Source: Rhizobium terricola (lineage in GTDB: Bacteria > Pseudomonadota > Alphaproteobacteria > Rhizobiales > Rhizobiaceae). From it: a stretch of DNA of 64,000 nucleotides. Both the position numbers and the translations under genes were made by a program. Location: assembly GCF_012927355.1 (NCBI RefSeq), contig NZ_JABBGK010000002.1, forward strand, positions 454,758-518,757. The letters are read 5' to 3'. The notes beneath the pieces are model-generated. The model was not told the DNA's origin. It made no database searches and worked only from the letters and a program-made list of their open reading frames with translations. Shown here piece by piece: positions 23,944-46,795 of the stretch. Within the stretch, counting starts at the first letter, position 1, and the number at the start of each line of letters is the position of its first letter.

Positions 23944-24308
23944 CAGACCTCGCTGTACCGGAACTGTTCCTGGGAATAGGTGCCGTCGGCATCAGCATCA
24001 CGCACAGCATTCTTCAACAGGTCGGCAACAGCCCGCACTGCGTTCATGTGCGCCTCGACGCGACGCGCGTTGAGCGCGAGCTTGTTCTTCACGCTGTGCA
24101 TCTGCTCGACGTAGCCGAGCGCCAGTTCGCGCGGATCGGTGTCGCGGAACAGCATGGTGAGCTCGTAGAGGCAACGGCTCTTGTGCGCATTCGAGACCTT
24201 GAGATCGAACTCCGGATCCTTGCCGATGCGCTGGTTTTCATTGTCGATGATCGCTTCGAGCCGGCCGAGAACCGTCTTGATACGATAATCGCTGTTGATG
24301 ACTTCCAT
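23943..24308 (-). CDS. FlgN-like flagellar export chaperone candidate
   Basis: A 121-residue all-helical protein. The C-terminal part (VKNKLALNARRVEAHMNAVR, then a DGTYS motif) resembles FlgN, the chaperone that delivers hook-filament junction proteins FlgK and FlgL to the export gate: a long helix with an Asn-rich face and a final Tyr-Ser-Gly type tail. Similarity is by pattern only. It lies 24 bp after the rod-binding gene and overlaps the next gene by one base. Confidence 0.5.
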   Translation of the reverse strand: MEVINSDYRIKTVLGRLEAIIDNENQRIGKDPEFDLKVSNAHKSRCLYELTMLFRDTDPRELALGYVEQMHSVKNKLALNARRVEAHMNAVRAVADLLKNAVRDADADGTYSQEQFRYSEV

Positions 24309-28641: not shown

Positions 28642-29100
28642 TCAGGTGCTGGAATCAGTACCAGTGTCGGTCTCGCTGGTCGAGGGCGTGCCGACGCGGA
28701 CACCGACAACGATCGGGATTTCGTCGCCTTCGGTGGTCGTGGCTACCATGGTATCGCTGTAGACGCGAACAGAAGCGATGACACCGGAGGTCTTTTCATC
28801 GGCACTGGTGATGGTCTTGCCGATGTAGTTGGATGCGTTGGTCAGCGCGTTGCCGGTGATCAAAGTCTCGAGGTTCGAGTTCGTCTGGATCGTCTGCTCG
28901 ACCTGGGAGAAGGTCGCGAGCTGGGCAATCTGCTCACTCGCGTCCATCGGATCCGTCGGGTCCTGGTTCTGCATCTGCGCGATCAGGAGCTTCAGGAAAG
29001 AATCGTAGTCGAGCGATGCAGAGGCGGCCGCCGACGAGGCACTCTTGTCGGTCGTCGTCGTGTTGGTGCCCGAGACGCCGTTTACGCCGCTTACCGCCAT
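28642..29100 (-). CDS. flgD: Hook-capping protein FlgD (short alphaproteobacterial form)
   Basis: A 152-residue protein. It has the FlgD N-terminal cap motif ([41 protein letters not shown]), then a short beta region. Enterobacterial FlgD has about 230 residues with tudor-like and Ig-like domains. Here the C-terminal part is reduced and ends in a Ser/Thr/Asp-rich tail. It directs hook subunit polymerisation. Its start overlaps flbT by 10 bases. Confidence 0.92.
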
Positions 29101-29540
29101 GGTGCGATCTCCTTGCGAATCTGCTCGACGGTCGCCGGCGTCATCTCCTGGCTGTTGAGGATCTTGTCCTCGATGGCGTAGAGGCCACGGATCGCCTTGA
29201 GGGCGTCGAAAGCACGGCCGGACGAAACCATCGCGTCGATGCGCTTCAGCTCGGCCAGGATCTCTTCGTTCTCGAAGCAGGTCAGCAGCATGATGATCGA
29301 CTTGCGGAACATCGCCATCGACTGATCGCGGCCTTCCGGGTTGATCAACATCATCTGGGCGATGAAGTAGAGCTGCCGCAGCGGGGTCGTCGCCTGCTCG
29401 GGCTGGAGGACGTGGTTTTCCAGAAGGAAGGTCACGTCGTTCAAGAACTCCAGCGCAACCTTGCGGTCGACGCGCAGAACCGCTCCGTTGATGAAAATAC
29501 GTTCGCCCGACTTGAGCGAGATGCGCAAAGTGCTCTTCAT
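29091..29540 (-). CDS. flbT: Flagellin post-transcriptional regulator FlbT
   Basis: A 149-residue protein of the FlbT family ([20 protein letters not shown] near the start, [21 protein letters not shown] in the middle). In Caulobacter FlbT binds the 5' leader of a flagellin mRNA and promotes its decay. In other alphaproteobacteria it can activate. The conserved flagellin leader hairpins in this window are the obvious candidate targets. The ATG overlaps the flaF stop by 4 bases. Confidence 0.95.
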
Positions 29541-29884
29541 TTCAGTCCATCCCTGATGATGGTTGTCACGTCAATAATGCCCTGGAAATTGGTGGACTGC
29601 CGTTTCCGGATCCGATCGCATTCCTTCAAGATCCAGATGGCGATCGAAATCAGATTGGCACGTAATTCCGTATCCAATTGGTTTTCTGGGTGTTTCAAGT
29701 CTTCGATGAAGCGGATCCAGACCCGGCGCGTATAGAACAGCGCCTCGATGGCCTCACGATTGTACCCCTCTTCGTCGCGCGCCGCGCTCAGAAGCTCAAT
29801 GCAACGCGTCAGTGCCTGCCTCTCACGATCCTTGGCGTCGGCGACGCCATCCTCCATGATTTCGGCATATGAAAACTGGTACAT
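29537..29884 (-). CDS. flaF: Flagellar biosynthesis regulator FlaF
   Basis: A 115-residue helical protein ([10 protein letters not shown]-type N terminus, here [21 protein letters not shown]) typical of FlaF. It is needed for flagellin synthesis or export and works with FlbT, with which it overlaps. First gene of the flaF-flbT-flgD-fliQ-flhA-fliR unit, 38 bp after flgL. Confidence 0.93.
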
Positions 29885-34479: not shown

Positions 34480-34568
34480 GTCCGCCTCCGAATCAGTGTG
34501 GTGCCTCGATGTACTATCGGTACGAATCGGGGGATTCACGGACAACTAGATGATGTTAATGGTGGAAG

Positions 34569-34583
34569 TTAATAATTGATTAA
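34569..34583. promoter_or_regulatory. TTAA-N7-TTAA (CtrA-type) box, rem-proximal
   Basis: TTAATAATTGATTAA lies 90 bp upstream of the rem GTG. It matches the full-site pattern of CtrA (TTAA-N7-TTAA), an OmpR-family cell-cycle regulator of alphaproteobacteria. The region is AT-rich, which raises the chance rate. Confidence 0.5.
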
Positions 34584-34654
34584 GATTTTTGTGCCGATTT
34601 GAACTACATATAGTGGCTTTATTGTTTTATAGGCACTATTTTTGCGCGCAGAAG

Positions 34655-34669
34655 TTAACGAATGGTTAA
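34655..34669. promoter_or_regulatory. TTAA-N7-TTAA (CtrA-type) box, rem-distal
   Basis: TTAACGAATGGTTAA is a second full site 176 bp upstream of rem, followed by a further TTAAC half-site at 34685. It is nearly identical in layout to the box upstream of the last flagellin gene. Confidence 0.55.
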
Positions 34670-40374: not shown

Positions 40375-41340
40375 TTACTTGAACAGGGTCAGGATGTTTT
40401 CCGCATTGGTGTTGGCGATCGACAGGGCCTGGATGCCGAGCTGCTGCTGCGTCTGCAGGGCCTTCAGGCGGGTCGATTCCTCGTTCATGTCGGCATCGAC
40501 CAGACGACCGACACCCTTGTCGATAACGTCCATCAGGTTGGACACGAAGCTGTCCTGCATCTCGATGCGACTGGTGATGGCACCGAGCGTCGATGCGGCG
40601 TCGGTCAGCTGGCCCAGAAGTTCTTCCACGACGCTGATCATGTCGCTCAGTTCGTCGTCGGTGGTCGCCATGCTGATCTCGATCTCGGTGCCGGTCGCCG
40701 GCGTGGTCGAGGAAATATCGAGGAGGAAGTAGTTGCGGGCGGTGCCTGTCGGGGTCGACATCAGGGCATCCGCATCGATATCCTTGGTCAGAAACCCGCG
40801 CGACGCATCGAAGCTATCGAGCAGCACGGACTCGGCGGTATCGAAATTGAGGGTCGTCACCTCCACGGAGCCATCGGCACCGCGCACGAAGGACGACACG
40901 ACCTGCTTGGTGCCAAGCGCAGCCGGATTGGTATTGTAGAGCCAGTTCTCGCCGGAGAAGGATGCCGATTGCGCCGAGGAAACCAGCTGGTTCTTCAGCT
41001 GTTTCATTTCCTCGTTAATCTTTTCCTTGTCGACGCCCGGCTCGCTTGCCGCGACCAATTTGGCCTTGATCTGGGTCATCACGTCGATGACGTTGTCGAG
41101 CGCCGTGTAGGCCGTATCGACGGTCGCGGCGCCAAGGCCCAGCGCGTCGGCGACGGTCGAGAGTGCCGCATTGTCAGAACGCATGGTGGTGGCGATCGAC
41201 CAGTAGCCAGCATTGTCGGCCGCGGTCTCAACCCTGTAGCCGGACGACACTCGCCGCTGCGTGGTTTCCAGATTCGTGTCGATGGTCCGAAGCGTCTGGA
41301 GTGCAGCCATCGCCGCAGCATTGGTCATAATACTGGTCAT
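40375..41340 (-). CDS. flaC: Flagellin (fourth in the array)
   Basis: A 321-residue flagellin. Conserved N terminus (MTSIMTNAAAMAALQTLRTID, then RVSSGYRVETAADNAGYWSI) and C terminus (DADMNEESTRLKALQTQQQLGIQAL...NILTLFK) flank a short variable middle. It is the most divergent and shortest of the four here. The ATG at 41340 has GGGG upstream; the frame opens 4 residues earlier. The symbol follows the S. meliloti order flaA-flaB-flaD-flaC and is positional only. It carries its own CtrA-type box and a variant of the leader hairpin. Confidence 0.92.
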   Translation of the reverse strand: MTSIMTNAAAMAALQTLRTIDTNLETTQRRVSSGYRVETAADNAGYWSIATTMRSDNAALSTVADALGLGAATVDTAYTALDNVIDVMTQIKAKLVAASEPGVDKEKINEEMKQLKNQLVSSAQSASFSGENWLYNTNPAALGTKQVVSSFVRGADGSVEVTTLNFDTAESVLLDSFDASRGFLTKDIDADALMSTPTGTARNYFLLDISSTTPATGTEIEISMATTDDELSDMISVVEELLGQLTDAASTLGAITSRIEMQDSFVSNLMDVIDKGVGRLVDADMNEESTRLKALQTQQQLGIQALSIANTNAENILTLFK

Positions 41341-41369
41341 CTGATGCCCCAATTCTCAATGAAATCACA

Positions 41370-41387
41370 TCCGGCGGACACGCCGGA
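41370..41387 (-). promoter_or_regulatory. Flagellin leader hairpin (flaC)
   Basis: 7-bp stem TCCGGCG / CGCCGGA with a GACA loop, next to an ACAT that corresponds to the ATGT following the hairpin in the other flagellin leaders. It starts 29 bases upstream of the ATG. The GCATGATG-type block is 12 nt further upstream (41399-41409). Confidence 0.6.
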
Positions 41388-41443
41388 GGCGACAGGAGGG
41401 CATCATGCTGACAAGACGCAAAGCTGCGTCGTCCCCGTCACCG

Positions 41444-41458
41444 TTAACAAATCGTTAA
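41444..41458. promoter_or_regulatory. TTAA-N7-TTAA (CtrA-type) box upstream of flaC
   Basis: TTAACAAATCGTTAA is a perfect full site within a perfect 10-5-10 inverted repeat (arms CACCGTTAAC, 41439-41463). A second partial copy of GTTAACAAATCGTT begins at 41467. It sits about 104-118 bp upstream of the start codon. Confidence 0.6.
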
Positions 41459-41561
41459 CGGTGGCAGTTAACAAATCGTTGCTTTCATTGGCAAGTCCAG
41501 AAAGTGCTAACGATAGCAAAATCGGAAACACGTACAGTTTCGCGCAAGGCAATAAAGGAAA

Positions 41562-41586
41562 ACCCGCGCCCTTTCGAGGCGCGGGT
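41562..41586 (-). terminator. Terminator of the third flagellin gene
   Basis: A 9-bp perfect stem ACCCGCGCC / GGCGCGGGT followed on the minus strand by TTTTCCTTTA. A good intrinsic terminator separating flaD from flaC. Confidence 0.85.
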
Positions 41587-41647
41587 CTCACCGAACACAT
41601 CCGACATGTCAGGCCGGGACGAAGTCGCCCTTAGCCGAGGGCGCCGG

Positions 41648-42880
41648 TTACTGACGGAAGAGCGTCAGGATGTTTTCGGAAGCGGTGTTGGCGATGGACA
41701 GCGACTGGATGGCGAGCTGCTGCTGGGTCTGCAGGGCTTTCAGGCGGGTCGATTCCTCGTTCATATCGGCATCGACGAGACGGCCGATACCGGAGTCGAT
41801 CGAGTCGGTCAGCGAAGCAACGAACTCTTCCTGCATGCCAATGCGCATGGCGATCGAACCGAGATCGGAGCTTGCGCTGATGACAGTTTCGAGGGCGAGA
41901 TCGACGGCGCTGACCATGACGTCAAGTTCGTCGTTGGTGAGGGTGGTGATGTCCACGGTATCGATCGAATTCGGCGCCGGGATGTTGGTGGCCGGCAGAT
42001 TTGCCGTATCAACACCATAGTAGACACCAGCCTCGTCGTGCAGTGCCTCCTGGCCGGTACCAGTCACGTCCGTGGCGAGGACCCAGGTGTCCGCGTCGGC
42101 CTGGACGAAGTAGCTGCCGTTGGTGATGACGGTGACGCCACCGACGATCAGGTCGGCGGTTGCCTGGGCAAGCTGGGTCGTCGTGCTGCCAACGGTGTTG
42201 GTGGTGAAGGTTGCAGCCGAGCCGATCAGTTGGTCGATGGTGTAAGCGGCTACCGTCTGGGAGGTGACGACACCATTGGTGTTGACATCCAGCGTGACGG
42301 CGTTCTGGGAAACGTTGTAGGTGCGATCGAGGATGCCGGTGTCGCCGACGGTGTCGAAGAGCACGGTATCGCCATTGAGTTCGTAGTCTATCTTCTTGAC
42401 CGAGACCGAACCGTCTTCGGCGCGGACGAAGGAACCAACGACGTTCTTGAAAACTGAGCCACCGGAGAGGTCGGCCTGGAGCCAGTTTTCACCGGAGAAG
42501 GATGCGGCCGACGAGATCGTGCGCAGCTGTTCCTGCAGCTGGGCGATCTCTTCCTGGATCTTGGAGCGGTCAACGCCTTCTTCCGTGGCGGCGACCATCT
42601 TGGCCTTGATTTCCTTGACCACTTCAACTGCGGTTTCCATCGCAGAATAGGCGGTGTCCACCTTTGCTGCGCCGAGGCCGAGGGCGTCCTGGACGGCGGA
42701 GAGCGCCATGTTGTCGGAACGCATGGTGGTCGCGATCGACCAGTAGGCGGCGTTGTCGGAAGCGGTACCGACGCGCAGGCCCGACGATACCCGTGCCTGG
42801 GTGCGTTCCATGCTGTCGTCGATGGAGCGGAGTGTCTGCAGTGCCGCCATTGCGGCGTTGTTCGTCAAAATGCTGGTCAT
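41648..42880 (-). CDS. flaD: Flagellin (third in the array)
   Basis: A 410-residue flagellin, the longest of the four. N terminus MTSILTNNAAMAALQTLRSID and C terminus SIANTASENILTLFRQ are typical. The central domain differs from the first two genes (VVSNG-type insert VTVITNGSYFVQADADTW) and lacks homogenisation with them. It has its own leader hairpin and terminator, so it is probably monocistronic. The symbol is positional only. Confidence 0.92.
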   Translation of the reverse strand: MTSILTNNAAMAALQTLRSIDDSMERTQARVSSGLRVGTASDNAAYWSIATTMRSDNMALSAVQDALGLGAAKVDTAYSAMETAVEVVKEIKAKMVAATEEGVDRSKIQEEIAQLQEQLRTISSAASFSGENWLQADLSGGSVFKNVVGSFVRAEDGSVSVKKIDYELNGDTVLFDTVGDTGILDRTYNVSQNAVTLDVNTNGVVTSQTVAAYTIDQLIGSAATFTTNTVGSTTTQLAQATADLIVGGVTVITNGSYFVQADADTWVLATDVTGTGQEALHDEAGVYYGVDTANLPATNIPAPNSIDTVDITTLTNDELDVMVSAVDLALETVISASSDLGSIAMRIGMQEEFVASLTDSIDSGIGRLVDADMNEESTRLKALQTQQQLAIQSLSIANTASENILTLFRQ

Positions 42881-42916
42881 GATATTTGCCCCTGAAATTG
42901 GCTAGATAGAGGGACA

Positions 42917-42933
42917 TCCCGGATCAGCCGGGA
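42917..42933 (-). promoter_or_regulatory. Flagellin leader hairpin (flaD)
   Basis: 6-bp stem TCCCGG / CCGGGA, 5-nt loop, immediately followed on the mRNA by ATGTCCC (42911-42917) and then 30 nt to the ATG. A GCATAAGGCC-type block lies 11 nt upstream (42944-42954). Confidence 0.7.
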
Positions 42934-42974
42934 ACGATGGGGAGGCCTTATGCCGTTAACCGTTTCTTCGTCTA

Positions 42975-42996
42975 GGTTAACCCATCGTTTCGATGG
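42975..42996. promoter_or_regulatory. Conserved distal flagellin upstream element (flaD)
   Basis: GGTTAAC...CGTTTCGATGG, identical at 19 of 22 positions to the element upstream of flaB (44407-44428) and at the same distance (41 nt) from the leader hairpin. It contains a TTAA-N7-TTT half-type CtrA/OmpR pattern and a CCATCG-AAA-CGATGG dyad. Confidence 0.6.
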
Positions 42997-43064
42997 TTGC
43001 AGTTAAGACGGTGTTGGTTAACAAACCTTAAACGGCCCAATAAAAAGATTACCAAAATGAAAAA

Positions 43065-43091
43065 GGGCCGCGCCCCGGAAGGGCGCGACCC
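43065..43091 (-). terminator. Terminator of the second flagellin gene
   Basis: An 11-bp stem with one mismatch (GGGCCGCGCCC / GGGCGCGACCC) followed on the minus strand by TTTTTCATTTT. A strong intrinsic terminator. Confidence 0.85.
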
Positions 43092-43114
43092 GAATTCGGC
43101 TCGATGCGCTAGGA

Positions 43115-44311
43115 TTAGCGGAAGAGCGACAGAATGACTTCCGAAGAAGAGTTGGCAATCGACAGCGACTGAACGGCGAGCTGCTGCTGGGTCTGCAGGG
43201 CCTTCAGGCGGGTCGATTCTTCGTTCAGGTCGGCGTCGACGAGTCGGCCAACACCCTTGTCGATCGAGTCCGAGAGCGAGTTGACGAACTCGGTCTGCAA
43301 GTCGATGCGCATGCCGATCGAACCGAGGTCCGCAGCCGCGCTGGTCATGTCGGTCAACGCTTCGTCGACGCCGGAGATCATGGCATCGAGCTGTGCCGGG
43401 GTCAGACCGGTGATGTCGAGGTTCTCGATCGAGGACGGAGCGGCGATGGAAGCCGGAAGGTTGGCCGTATCTACACCGTAGTAGGTGCCGCCCTCATCAT
43501 GAACGGTTTCCTGGCCCGTGCCGGTGACATCAACCGCCTGAACCCAGGTGGTGTCATCGATCTTGACATAGAACGTGCCTGCAGCATCAGCGAGCTGAGT
43601 GGTCTTGCCCGCTGCCGTCGTGTTGGTCGTGAACGTCGCGTTGAGAGCGATCAGGTCGTCCACTGTGTAAGCAGCAACGGTTACCTCTGCGGAAGCACCG
43701 TCGGTGTTAACGGAAAGAGTGACAGAATTCGAGGTGACGTTGTAGGTCTTGTCAAGAATGCCGCCTGCACCGGTGTTGTCGAACAGCACGTTGTCGGTGT
43801 TCAGCTCATAATCAACCTTCTTGACCGAAACGCTGCCGTCCTCGGCGCGGACGAAGGAGGCCACGACGGACTTTGCGACCGTGCCGGCCGTGCCACCGAG
43901 GTCAGCCTGGAGCCAGTTTTCACCCGAGAACGAAGCTGCCTGGGCGATCGAGGACAGCTGATCCTTCAGCTGGTCGATTTCTTCCTGGATCTTGGCCTTG
44001 TCGACGCCGTCTTCGGTCGCAGCAACGAGCTTGGCCTTGATTTCCTTGACGACTTCGATAGCCGAGTCCATGCCGGAATAGGCGGTGTCAACCTTTGCAG
44101 CGCCGAGGCCGAGAGCGTCCGAAACGGCCGAGAGGGCCATGTTGTCGGACTTCATCGTCGTGGCGATCGACCAGTAAGCGGCGTTGTCCGAAGCGGAACC
44201 GACGCGCAGACCGGAGGAGACGCGATCCTGCGTTTCTTCCATGCCCGAGGAAATCGAACGAAGGGTAGAGAGCGCAGCCATTGCTGCGACGTTGGTCAAA
44301 ATGCTAGTCAT
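43115..44311 (-). CDS. flaB: Flagellin (second in the array)
   Basis: A 398-residue flagellin, same length as the first gene and nearly identical to it in the central domain. Of 479 bp (43332-43810), only one base differs from 44839-45317. The conserved ends differ more (N terminus TNVAAMAALSTLRSISSGMEET versus TNTSAMAAL...). It has its own leader and terminator. This suggests recent duplication or gene conversion. Confidence 0.93.
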   Translation of the reverse strand: MTSILTNVAAMAALSTLRSISSGMEETQDRVSSGLRVGSASDNAAYWSIATTMKSDNMALSAVSDALGLGAAKVDTAYSGMDSAIEVVKEIKAKLVAATEDGVDKAKIQEEIDQLKDQLSSIAQAASFSGENWLQADLGGTAGTVAKSVVASFVRAEDGSVSVKKVDYELNTDNVLFDNTGAGGILDKTYNVTSNSVTLSVNTDGASAEVTVAAYTVDDLIALNATFTTNTTAAGKTTQLADAAGTFYVKIDDTTWVQAVDVTGTGQETVHDEGGTYYGVDTANLPASIAAPSSIENLDITGLTPAQLDAMISGVDEALTDMTSAAADLGSIGMRIDLQTEFVNSLSDSIDKGVGRLVDADLNEESTRLKALQTQQQLAVQSLSIANSSSEVILSLFR

Positions 44312-44348
44312 AGTTGCATTGCCCCTATTGGCTTACTGTGAAGGGACA

Positions 44349-44365
44349 TTCCGGCTTCACCGGAA
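44349..44365 (-). promoter_or_regulatory. Flagellin leader hairpin (flaB)
   Basis: 6-bp stem TTCCGG / CCGGAA, 5-nt loop, followed on the mRNA by ATGTCCC (44343-44349) and 31 nt to the ATG. A GCATGACGC block lies 11 nt upstream (44376-44386). Confidence 0.7.
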
Positions 44366-44406
44366 ACGGCGCACAGCGTCATGCTTATCAACCCCTTAAT
44401 TTTTCA

Positions 44407-44428
44407 GGTTAACTCGCCGTTTCGATGG
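44407..44428. promoter_or_regulatory. Conserved distal flagellin upstream element (flaB)
   Basis: GGTTAAC...CGTTTCGATGG, the counterpart of the flaD element at the same spacing from the start codon (about 96-117 nt). Confidence 0.6.
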
Positions 44429-44555
44429 AGCCAGTAAACGGCAGTAAGGTTAATGAAGCGCTAAACGAAACGAGAATTTTCACGATTCGGGGAAAAATGG
44501 CAGCACAGCCTTAACGGGTACGCGCGCGTAACACGAAAGGCTTAAAACAATAATA

Positions 44556-44583
44556 AAGCCGCACCCGTTTCCGGACGCGGCTT
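44556..44583 (-). terminator. Terminator of the first flagellin gene
   Basis: Imperfect stem (AAGCCGC / GCGGCTT plus three more pairs after two mismatches) followed on the minus strand by TTATTATTGTTTT. Confidence 0.7.
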
Positions 44584-44621
44584 CTTTTCTCAGGACCAGA
44601 AAGTTGGCCGGCTTCGCGCTA

Positions 44622-45818
44622 TTAGCGGAAGAGCGACAGGACGTTCTGCGTGTCGGAGTTTGCGATCGACAGCGACTGGATGGCGAGCTGCTGCTGGGTC
44701 TGCAGGGCCTTCAGGCGGGTCGATTCTTCGTTCAGGTCGGCGTCGACGAGACGGCCGACACCCTTGTCGATCGAGTCCGAGAGCGAGTTGACGAACTCGT
44801 TCTGCATGTCGATGCGCGAGGAGATCGAGCCAAGTGCTGCAGCCGCGCTGGTCATGTCGGTCAACGCTTCGTCGACGCCGGAGATCATGGCATCGAGCTG
44901 TGCCGGGGTCAGACCGGTGATGTCGAGGTTCTCGATCGAGGACGGAGCGGCGACGGAAGCCGGAAGGTTGGCCGTATCTACACCGTAGTAGGTGCCGCCC
45001 TCATCATGAACGGTTTCCTGGCCCGTGCCGGTGACATCAACCGCCTGAACCCAGGTGGTGTCATCGATCTTGACATAGAACGTGCCTGCAGCATCAGCGA
45101 GCTGAGTGGTCTTGCCCGCTGCCGTCGTGTTGGTCGTGAACGTCGCGTTGAGAGCGATCAGGTCGTCCACTGTGTAAGCAGCAACGGTTACCTCTGCGGA
45201 AGCACCGTCGGTGTTAACGGAAAGAGTGACAGAATTCGAGGTGACGTTGTAGGTCTTGTCAAGAATGCCGCCTGCACCGGTGTTGTCGAACAGCACGTTG
45301 TCGGTGTTCAGCTCATAGTCAACCTTCTTGACCGAAACGCTGCCGTCATCGGCGCGGACGAAGGAGGCTACGACGGACTTTGCGACCGTGCCGGCCGTGC
45401 CACCGAGGTCAGCCTGGAGCCAGTTTTCACCCGAGAACGAAGCTGCCGAAGCGATCGAGGTCAGCTGGTCCTTGAGCTGGGTGATTTCTTCCTGGATCTT
45501 GGTCTTGTCGACGCCGTCTTCGGTGGCGGCAACGAGCTTGGCCTTGATTTCCTTGACGACTTCGATAGCCGAGTCCATGCCGGAATAGGCGGTGTCAACC
45601 TTTGCAGCGCCGAGGCCGAGAGCGTCCGAAACGGCCGAGAGGGCCATGTTGTCGGACTTCATCGTCGTGGCGATCGACCAGTAAGCGGCGTTGTCCGAAG
45701 CGGAACCGACGCGCAGACCGGAGGAGACACGAGCCTGGGTTTCTTCCATGCCGGAAGCGATAGAGCGGAGCGTGGACAGCGCAGCCATTGCGCTGGTGTT
45801 GGTGAGAATGCTGGTCAT
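44622..45818 (-). CDS. flaA: Flagellin (first in the array)
   Basis: A 398-residue flagellin (TNTSAMAALSTLRSIASGMEE at the N terminus; SLSIANSDTQNVLSLFR at the C terminus). By position it corresponds to S. meliloti flaA, the principal and indispensable filament subunit. The central domain is shared almost base for base with flaB. It lies downstream of fliP with a 239-bp promoter and leader region. Export needs the gate proteins and probably FlaF/FlbT. Confidence 0.94.
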   Translation of the reverse strand: MTSILTNTSAMAALSTLRSIASGMEETQARVSSGLRVGSASDNAAYWSIATTMKSDNMALSAVSDALGLGAAKVDTAYSGMDSAIEVVKEIKAKLVAATEDGVDKTKIQEEITQLKDQLTSIASAASFSGENWLQADLGGTAGTVAKSVVASFVRADDGSVSVKKVDYELNTDNVLFDNTGAGGILDKTYNVTSNSVTLSVNTDGASAEVTVAAYTVDDLIALNATFTTNTTAAGKTTQLADAAGTFYVKIDDTTWVQAVDVTGTGQETVHDEGGTYYGVDTANLPASVAAPSSIENLDITGLTPAQLDAMISGVDEALTDMTSAAAALGSISSRIDMQNEFVNSLSDSIDKGVGRLVDADLNEESTRLKALQTQQQLAIQSLSIANSDTQNVLSLFR

Positions 45819-45856
45819 TAGTTTGTCCCTTAAAAACGAGATACTGAGGGGGACAT

Positions 45857-45879
45857 ACCGGGCTAAAAAAACTACCGGT
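45857..45879 (-). promoter_or_regulatory. Flagellin leader hairpin (flaA)
   Basis: 5-bp stem ACCGG / CCGGT with a 13-nt loop rich in U on the mRNA, followed by TATGTCCC (ATGTCCC at 45850-45856) and 31 nt to the ATG. A GGCATGATGCC block lies 12 nt upstream (45891-45901). The looser loop differs from the other copies. Confidence 0.6.
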
Positions 45880-46057
45880 CACGACAGTTCGGCATCATGC
45901 CATTCGGTAACTTTTTCTTGGGCTACCAGACCTGTTGTACGAGGACCAAACTCGCAGCCAATTATTGCCAAGAGCTTAACCGACCGGGGATCGGTAAACT
46001 TGGACAAATCTATGGTAAACAAGGAAGAAACGATTTCGCGGAGGGTGTTCCGAACTG

Positions 46058-46795
46058 TCAGGAAAAGGAGCGCACGAGGCTTCCGACCAGGAGGTTCCAG
46101 CCGTCGATGAGGACGAAGAAGAGGATCTTGAACGGCAGCGAGATCGACGTCGGCGGCAGCATCATCATACCCATGGCCATGGTGATCGTCGCAACGATCA
46201 TGTCGATGACCAGGAAGGGCAGAATGATCAAGAAGCCGATTTCGAAACCGCGGCGGATCTCCGACAGCATGAAGGCGGGAACGAGCACGCGATAGTCGAT
46301 CTTGTCATCGGAAATCGTCGCCTGGCCGCGTTCGTTGGCGATGTCGACAAAGAGCTTCAGATCCTTGTCGCGCGTGTTTGCGGCCATGAAGGTGCGGAAC
46401 GGTTCGGCGATTGCCTTCACGGAGTCCGCCTCGCTCATGCGGTTCTCGAGCAGCGGCTGCACGCCATCCGTCCATGCCCGGTCCATGGTCGGCGCCATGA
46501 CGTAGAACGTCATGAACAGCGCCATGCTGGTCAGGATCATGTTGGACGGGGTGGAGGCGAGCCCCATGCCGGAACGCAGGATCGAAAAGGCGATGACGAA
46601 GCGCGGGAAGCTCGTCACCATGATGAGGATGCCGGGGGCAACCGAGAGGACCGTCAGAAGACCGAAGGTACGGATGATCCAAGCAGCGACCGAACCGTCG
46701 ATCGGCGCATTGAGAAGATCCGTGGGCAGTTGCTGCGCAGCAGCAAGCCCTGGCGCCATCGTCATGACGGCAAGAAGAAGGAGGAACCGAATCAT
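46058..46795 (-). CDS. fliP: Flagellar export gate protein FliP
   Basis: A 245-residue membrane protein with a cleavable signal (FLLLLAVMTMAPGLAAAQ). It has the FliP signatures VTSFPRFVIAFSILRSGMGL and FLIILPFLVIDMIVATITMAMGMMMLPPTSISLPFKILFFVLIDGW. It nucleates the FliPQR export gate. Its ATG overlaps fliL by 4 bases, and it is last gene of the flgB operon. Confidence 0.96.
   Translation of the reverse strand: MIRFLLLLAVMTMAPGLAAAQQLPTDLLNAPIDGSVAAWIIRTFGLLTVLSVAPGILIMVTSFPRFVIAFSILRSGMGLASTPSNMILTSMALFMTFYVMAPTMDRAWTDGVQPLLENRMSEADSVKAIAEPFRTFMAANTRDKDLKLFVDIANERGQATISDDKIDYRVLVPAFMLSEIRRGFEIGFLIILPFLVIDMIVATITMAMGMMMLPPTSISLPFKILFFVLIDGWNLLVGSLVRSFS

Follow-up and report, generated by a model that had tools for sequence, protein, structure and literature searches.

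Flagellin leaders of Rhizobium terricola and related bacteria pair a conserved hairpin with a strand complementary to the ribosome-binding site: a probable point of FlbT control

Introduction

The closest described counterpart of the leaders analysed here is the FlbT-regulated flagellin 5' untranslated region (UTR) of Caulobacter crescentus, reportedly described by Anderson and Gober in 2000. In a wider sense, RNA thermometers, translational riboswitches and ribosomal-protein operators sequester the Shine-Dalgarno (SD) sequence, and ANTAR acts in antitermination on tandem stem-loops. We analysed the leaders of four tandem flagellin genes, flaA, flaB, flaC and flaD, on the minus strand of a 64,000-nt stretch of Rhizobium terricola DNA (hereafter the window; assembly GCF_012927355.1, contig NZ_JABBGK010000002.1, positions 454,758-518,757). 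The leaders of flaA, flaB and flaC carry a CCGG hairpin (H1) followed by a strand that can pair with the ribosome-binding site as a second hairpin (H2). We consider it probable that this leader RNA occludes the ribosome-binding site through H2 and is under the control of FlbT, which would switch it on.

FlbT acts on flagellin 5' UTRs, with opposite effects reported in Caulobacter and Brucella; PMC4347634 describes the mechanism as unresolved and lists no RNA motif. FlbT represses translation together with FljJ in Caulobacter (PMC7591256; also PMC3930126), whereas activation is described in Brucella (PMC8781033) and LafA1/2 are translationally induced by FlbT in Bradyrhizobium (PMC8429497). A motility screen in Agrobacterium fabrum hit both flbT and flaF (PMC9812332).

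Like the Caulobacter system, the present leaders belong to flagellin genes in a genome that encodes FlbT and FlaF, and their post-transcriptional control would be tied to assembly. In contrast, our covariance model of the leader (R1, described below) finds nothing beside flagellins outside the order of the window organism, a comparison that did not cover the Caulobacter leader itself, and the flagellin leaders sampled outside the order differ in architecture from the rhizobial H1-H2 pair. With SD-sequestering leaders, the element shares an anti-SD strand that lies upstream of the SD on one mRNA and is predicted to pair with it; it differs by the absence of an Rfam match, by a constant H1 abutting the SD stem, and by serving one protein family. 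Targets of the ANTAR type (ANTAR is named in PMC4347634) are likewise two tandem stem-loops with an RNA-binding protein as reader, but they serve antitermination, whereas the second stem of the flagellin leader contains the ribosome-binding site. Our searches of an open-licence library yielded no description of this leader.

Results

Two adjacent hairpins in the leaders of flaA, flaB and flaC

A preliminary description of this region had placed a GCATGA-type block and a CCGG hairpin before all four flagellin genes, and we located both again on the minus strand of each leader (Table 1). It had also presented a three-part leader, with ATGTCCC as the last part, as common to the four genes, if weaker in the last. 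This holds for flaA, flaB and flaC; flaD diverges, reading GATGTGA where the others have TGTCCC(T). The distances from ATGTCCC to the start codon, given earlier as 30, 31 and 31 nt, are 31, 31 and 30 nt for flaA, flaB and flaC by our recount. Overlooked at that stage was what complementarity identifies as an anti-SD role of ATGTCCC in these three leaders: the motif can base-pair with the ribosome-binding site, which follows after about 20 nt and reads AAGGGACA in flaA and AGGGGCA in both flaB and flaC. Minimum free energy folds of the 100-nt leaders of flaA, flaB and flaC contain H1 and H2 side by side, with zero unpaired nucleotides separating them in flaB and flaC. In flaD, H1 is present and the canonical H2 is absent, the best H2 being GAUGU/GGCAUC or a nested alternative.

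Two candidates were rejected. A flaD pairing of TGATGCCC (41398-41405) with GGGGCATCA (41342-41350) was discounted because the TGATGCCC strand lies inside the probable promoter block. A short upstream reading frame starting from the ATG of ATGTCCC in flaA was dropped; it is open through in relatives, e.g., in L007, as judged by eye.

H2 complementarity is retained through sequence change

The leaders were compared in two sets. The first was obtained by a flagellin-alignment scan of genome contigs, resulting in 77 named loci with 233 flagellin starts and three hits without a start. These loci include Rhizobiaceae, Jiella, Aurantimonas and Fulvimarina (the latter three of which we take to be Aurantimonadaceae), Aminobacter, Mesorhizobium, Tardiphaga, Afifella, Pseudovibrio and others; together with the window, they yielded 232 leaders with enough upstream DNA. 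The second set comprises 146 leaders from other genomes of the same order and is not fully independent of the model training set, as at least four assemblies are shared (G566/L080, G580/L014, G393/L036 and G521/L064). In line with the preliminary description, the blocks recur beyond chance: 212 of the 232 leaders contain CCGG..CCGG, 169 contain ATG[T/C]CC and 215 contain the GCATGA block.

We scored H2 from the UG after H1 against the last 26 nt before the start, requiring at least 6 contiguous pairs and using shuffled SDs as controls. An H2 of at least 6 bp is possible in 175 of the 232 named-locus leaders, of which 225 were anchored, while shuffled SDs gave 10.8 on average and 19 at most. 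In the second set, it is possible in 98 of the 146 leaders, of which 138 were anchored, the shuffled SDs giving 17.0 on average and 25 at most. The loop separating the two strands varies from 6 to 46 nt. The anti-SD:SD duplex is also more stable with its own partner (-8.64 kcal/mol) than with permuted partners (-7.36; best of 2000 permutations, -8.13), in a comparison in which 8 of the 146 leaders were unanchored and several anchors were visibly misplaced.

The largest divergent class keeps the pairing through a change of sequence, from UGUCCC/GGGACA to UGUCUUUC/GAAAGAC. Leaders of family f176 lack UGUCCC and are missed by the covariance model; 13 of them read UGUCUUU, which pairs with GAAAGAC. 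When the partners were swapped between classes, the 65 UGUCCC leaders went from -10.6 with their own SDs to -5.3 with those of the UGUCUUU class, and the 13 UGUCUUU leaders from -10.4 to -6.9 with those of the UGUCCC class. Other changed pairs are UGUUCCU/AGGAACA in L137 and L138 and GUUUCC/GGAAAC in L272, and double changes occur in Jiella (L038, UGUUCC/GGAACG) and Aurantimonas (L043, UGUCU/AGACA). Among 151 non-redundant leaders, 133 contain CCGG..CCGG, of which 132 were aligned (alignment A3) and one, on the minus strand, was left out. A hand-supplied structure on these 132 leaders gives 85.8% paired cells, compared with 82.2% after shuffling and 32-63% when slid, and a covariation score of 0.159 (shuffled 0.116; 0 of 500 shuffles reach it), with six of the seven H2 pairs changed on both sides. 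As far as leader comparison can tell, the upstream strand is complementary to the SD and is kept so by compensatory change in the main classes.

Two short motifs recur in the H2 loop. GTAT..CGT is found in 14 of the 151 non-redundant leaders (1.5 when shuffled) and in 13 of 146 (1.2), for example in the window (45834-45845, minus strand), L007, L043, L052, L147, L261 and L273; it is a possible protein contact site. AGCCA occurs in 28 of the 151 leaders compared with 4.4 when shuffled, but in 6 of 146 compared with 4.7.

Occurrence of the element before flagellin genes

Alignment A3 and covariance model R1 were selected for H1. In the genome of R. terricola, R1 has three strong matches, which are the flaA, flaB and flaC leaders (E 3e-11 to 2e-10), the next match being at E 0.29; the flaD leader is unmatched even at E = 10. 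Of 297 genomes of the same order, 58 contain R1 matches, 89 in total. Among the 150 flagellins listed (about E 3e-31 or better), 80 have a model match, and 80 of the 89 matches directly precede the start of one of these flagellins; nine do not. Within this comparison, the H1-H2 element appears restricted to flagellin genes. Absence of the hairpin and ATGTCCC from related species had been named beforehand as an outcome that would contradict the element; both recur in relatives, though R1 finds no match in seven genomes that belong to a single genus (g226) of the window organism's family. Outside the order, eight of 285 genomes have a marginal match, with E between 2e-4 and 9e-3, and the 3 kb retrieved for each contains no flagellin open reading frame (ORF). 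Rfam gave no match for the window at gathering score, for 41300-46100 at E up to 1, or for the loci of eight relatives.

The CCGG hairpin and its position relative to a probable promoter

Of the 212 leaders with both CCGGs of H1, 90 have flanking letters that form a Watson-Crick pair; shuffling gives 41.5 on average, and 0 of 5000 shuffles reach 90. The commonest unpaired flanks are C.A (55) and G.A (23), mostly from leaders of the form TTx-CCGG..CCGG-AA, in which the unpaired x may be bulged. In the second set, wholly different arms are found, CATGTCGG/CCGACATG in L147 and GCCGA/TCGGC in L139. The earlier proposal of selection on RNA pairing thus gains from the covarying flanks as well as from the spacing of the H1 arms, the gap between the CCGGs ranging from 3 to 18 nt. 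A repeat of this kind could instead be a DNA operator or a part of the promoter, with the anti-SD match as a by-product of composition: CCGG itself is palindromic, its distance to a promoter-like block is fixed, and the thermodynamic support for an RNA structure is weak. However, we favour an RNA loop over a DNA operator because the arm spacing varies, and the H2 complementarity is far above the SD-shuffled controls across its variable loop and survives the change to the f176 form. Hence, we regard an operator as very improbable.

The block GCATGANGC begins 65-91 nt ahead of the start codon; its distance to the first CCGG is 21-23 nt in 183 of 203 leaders. GCATGA.GC is also retained in at least five leaders without H1 (L032, L039, L038:2396, L047:4370 and L058:6000). 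Both observations support the earlier guess that the GCATGATGCC block is a promoter; on sequence grounds, the GCATGA-type block is probably a -10-like promoter that would place the transcript start just before H1. Ahead of non-flagellin genes of the window, the sole intergenic match to GCAT[GC]ANGC is GCATCACGC (23995-24003, plus strand), besides the flaA block read from the opposite strand. Because the pattern is so scarce outside flagellin leaders, the promoter and the hairpin are inseparable within the window.

With H1 so near the expected 5' end, it might instead serve mainly as a 5'-end stabiliser of abundant flagellin messages, H2 being a constitutive translation brake and neither stem having a dedicated binder. 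The free variation of H1 loops and outer pairs among the leaders would suit such a role. It is at odds with the restriction of the element to flagellin genes, the recurrence of GTAT..CGT in the H2 loop, and the action of FlbT on flagellin 5' UTRs already in the literature, and we consider a mere stabiliser unlikely.

As a separate observation, CtrA-type boxes of the form TTAA-N7-TTAAC occur three times in the window (34568-34583, 34654-34669 and, upstream of flaD, 41443-41458), where 0.01 matches are expected. A transcription start site study of S. meliloti lists CtrA motifs at flaA, flaC and flaD (PMC3616915), and according to PMC12826043, Alphaproteobacteria are not known to have a sigma factor dedicated to the flagellum.

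FlbT and the leaders of other flagellins

The window encodes FlaF and FlbT on the strand of the flagellin genes and in the same cluster, 11-12 kb beyond them. Comparing the lists of genomes by eye, we find FlbT in 56 of the 58 that R1 matches; the exceptions, G408 and G542, have marginal matches that are not beside a listed flagellin. We take this co-occurrence as consistency only, because FlbT is found in 210 of the 297 genomes. A search among solved structures gave no relative of FlbT at E up to 1.

Flagellins outside the order have leaders of another kind. The pattern [CT][CT]T0-2 AGAA N0-4 GG at the SD is found in 22 of 38 defining leaders; it was set after viewing these 38 and then applied unchanged, with L295 (from an FlbT-less genome) dropped and L307 lacking a start. 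It recurs in 15 of 32 additional leaders from genomes with FlbT, some of these genomes having already contributed to the 38, and is absent from all 30 leaders of 20 genomes without FlbT (Fisher 7.7e-6, with no correction for relatedness). Other flagellin types within the order carry it in 15 of 36 leaders, compared with 0 of 45 control ORFs. Hairpins of at least 4 bp with an AGRAN pentaloop occur in 20/36, 7/38 and 11/31 leaders of the FlbT-bearing sets, in 2/146 rhizobial-type leaders and in 1/157 control ORFs. A strict tie between AGRAN and FlbT is disfavoured because 6 of 30 FlbT-less leaders carry such hairpins. One AGRAN hairpin often contains the SD, e.g., in L409, L399, L406 and L397 (among leaders L279-L318 and L350-L409). 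On this basis, we put forward, tentatively and as a possibility rather than an expectation, that FlbT could be a class-wide reader of RNA hairpins with two target lineages, H1-H2 in rhizobia and AGRAN hairpins in the flagellin leaders of the other Alphaproteobacteria, in which the last stem-loop carries the ribosome-binding site and FlbT sets its opening.

The flagellin cluster

The FlaA and FlaB proteins are 95% identical and long DNA stretches of their genes look identical, yet the leaders differ, which suggests that the genes duplicated recently, or underwent gene conversion, with the leaders left unaffected. At the end of Rhizobium clusters stands a divergent type of flagellin, beginning for example with MTYKITS; its leader has the GCATGA block and the CCGG hairpin and no recognisable H2.

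Table 1. Features of the flagellin leaders and associated genes; positions refer to the window except where a named locus is given
Feature	Position	Strand	Basis or remark
flaA GCATGATGCC block, probable promoter -10 or start region	45891-45900	-	sequence; fixed H1 spacing in relatives
flaA hairpin H1	45857-45879	-	arms ACCGG 45875-45879, CCGGT 45857-45861; flank covariation
flaA H2 5' strand (anti-SD) TGTCCC	45850-45855	-	fold; comparative support
flaA H2 3' strand GGGACA, overlaps ribosome-binding site AAGGGA	45824-45829	-	fold
flaB GCATGACGC block, probable promoter	44376-44384	-	sequence
flaB hairpin H1	44349-44366	-	arms TTTCCGG 44360-44366, CCGGAA 44349-44354
flaB H2 5' strand TGTCCCT, immediately 3' of H1	44342-44348	-	fold
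flaB H2 3' strand AGGGGCA, contains ribosome-binding site	44320-44326	-	fold
flaC GCATAAGGC block, probable promoter	42945-42953	-	sequence
flaC hairpin H1	42917-42933	-	arms TCCCGG 42928-42933, CCGGGA 42917-42922
flaC H2 5' strand TGTCCCT, immediately 3' of H1	42910-42916	-	fold
flaC H2 3' strand AGGGGCA, contains ribosome-binding site	42887-42893	-	fold
flaD GCATGATGCC block, probable promoter	41399-41408	-	sequence
flaD hairpin H1, 7 bp	41370-41387	-	arms TCCGGCG 41381-41387, CGCCGGA 41370-41376
flaD weak alternative H2, non-canonical	41343-41371	-	GATGT 41367-41371 with GGCATC 41343-41348; two letters shared with H1; 54-nt fold
TTAACGATTTGTTAAC, CtrA-type box upstream of flaD	41443-41458	-	motif scan
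flaA flagellin	44622-45818	-	ORF and homology
flaB flagellin	43115-44311	-	ORF and homology
flaC flagellin	41648-42880	-	ORF and homology
flaD flagellin	40375-41340	-	ATG start by homology; ORF list has upstream TTG at 41352
FlbT, candidate leader-binding regulator	29091-29540	-	Pfam PF07378
FlaF, flagellin secretion chaperone or FlbT partner	29537-29884	-	Pfam PF07309
Loci of MTYKITS-type flagellin	L009:8987, L067:9733, L069:1536, L072:8313, L074:9480, L075:7211, L079:7731, L083:8364

Discussion

The comparison of leaders indicates a conserved element that is restricted to flagellins and whose H2 strands stay complementary in the main divergent class although their sequences have changed. From it, we infer that transcripts begin shortly ahead of H1, that the closed form is poorly translated, and that FlbT is the binder, along with the sign of its effect. 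Flagellin mRNA would start a few nucleotides ahead of H1; directly after H1, UGUCCC would pair with the purine-rich ribosome-binding site and occlude it, so that the free leader RNA would be poorly translated. A trans-acting factor, most likely FlbT with FlaF or cytoplasmic flagellin, would recognise the hairpin pair and hold or open H2 depending on the assembly state of the flagellum.

Several results weigh against this interpretation. H1 is barely more stable than its own shuffles (mean z -0.64; 13 of 138 segments below the 5th percentile), and RNAalifold on the mixed 132-leader alignment A3 gives 0 pairs. SD occlusion is not distinctive either, the predicted SD pairing lying within the range of other window genes (62 window ORFs): their mean is 0.61, flaC has 0.82 and flaA 0.67, while flaB has 0.41 with a poorly placed SD window and flaD is outside that list. 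Three small classes pair better with SDs of the UGUCCC class than with their own, namely UGCCC (4 leaders, -4.4 own and -9.3 swapped), UGUUCCC (3 leaders, -6.4 and -8.1) and UGUUUCC (2 leaders, -5.9 and -8.2), and 41 of 138 leaders belong to no H2 class. With one leader per family, the mean own-partner advantage is small, -0.62 kcal/mol; in 283 of 300 draws the own value was lower than the mean of the swapped pairs, and in 81 it was lower than every one of the 40 derangements. Furthermore, genus g226 is mostly without H2, and the presence of FlbT in most genomes of the order hardly discriminates.

Several g226 leaders, such as L134, L135, L136, L238 and L244, keep H1, which reads CATACCGG/CCGGTATG in L134. 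In these, an A run (UGUCAAAAAAA or similar) replaces the anti-SD and H2 is lost, in one flagellin leader per genome.

As to the sign of control, FlbT might keep H2 closed up to completion of the hook-basal body, in the manner of Caulobacter, where FlbT and FljJ repress translation, and a closed H2 would be a natural target for a repressor. The activation described in Brucella and for the lateral flagellins of Bradyrhizobium, both closer relatives of the window organism, speaks for the opposite sign, and we find a closing role for FlbT rather doubtful. By analogy with these relatives, we prefer a rhizobial-type leader that FlbT would switch on. The new element here is the assignment of an SD-occluding leader to FlbT, a known regulator, whose binding we infer.

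With this leader, the question of the FlbT mechanism becomes testable on a compact RNA, in which changes to one strand would break either stem and compensatory changes would restore it. Three of the four R. terricola flagellin genes carry the element, which also occurs across the order, with 58 of the 297 sampled genomes matched, and the AGRAN-loop leaders would offer a second, independent target for the same protein family.

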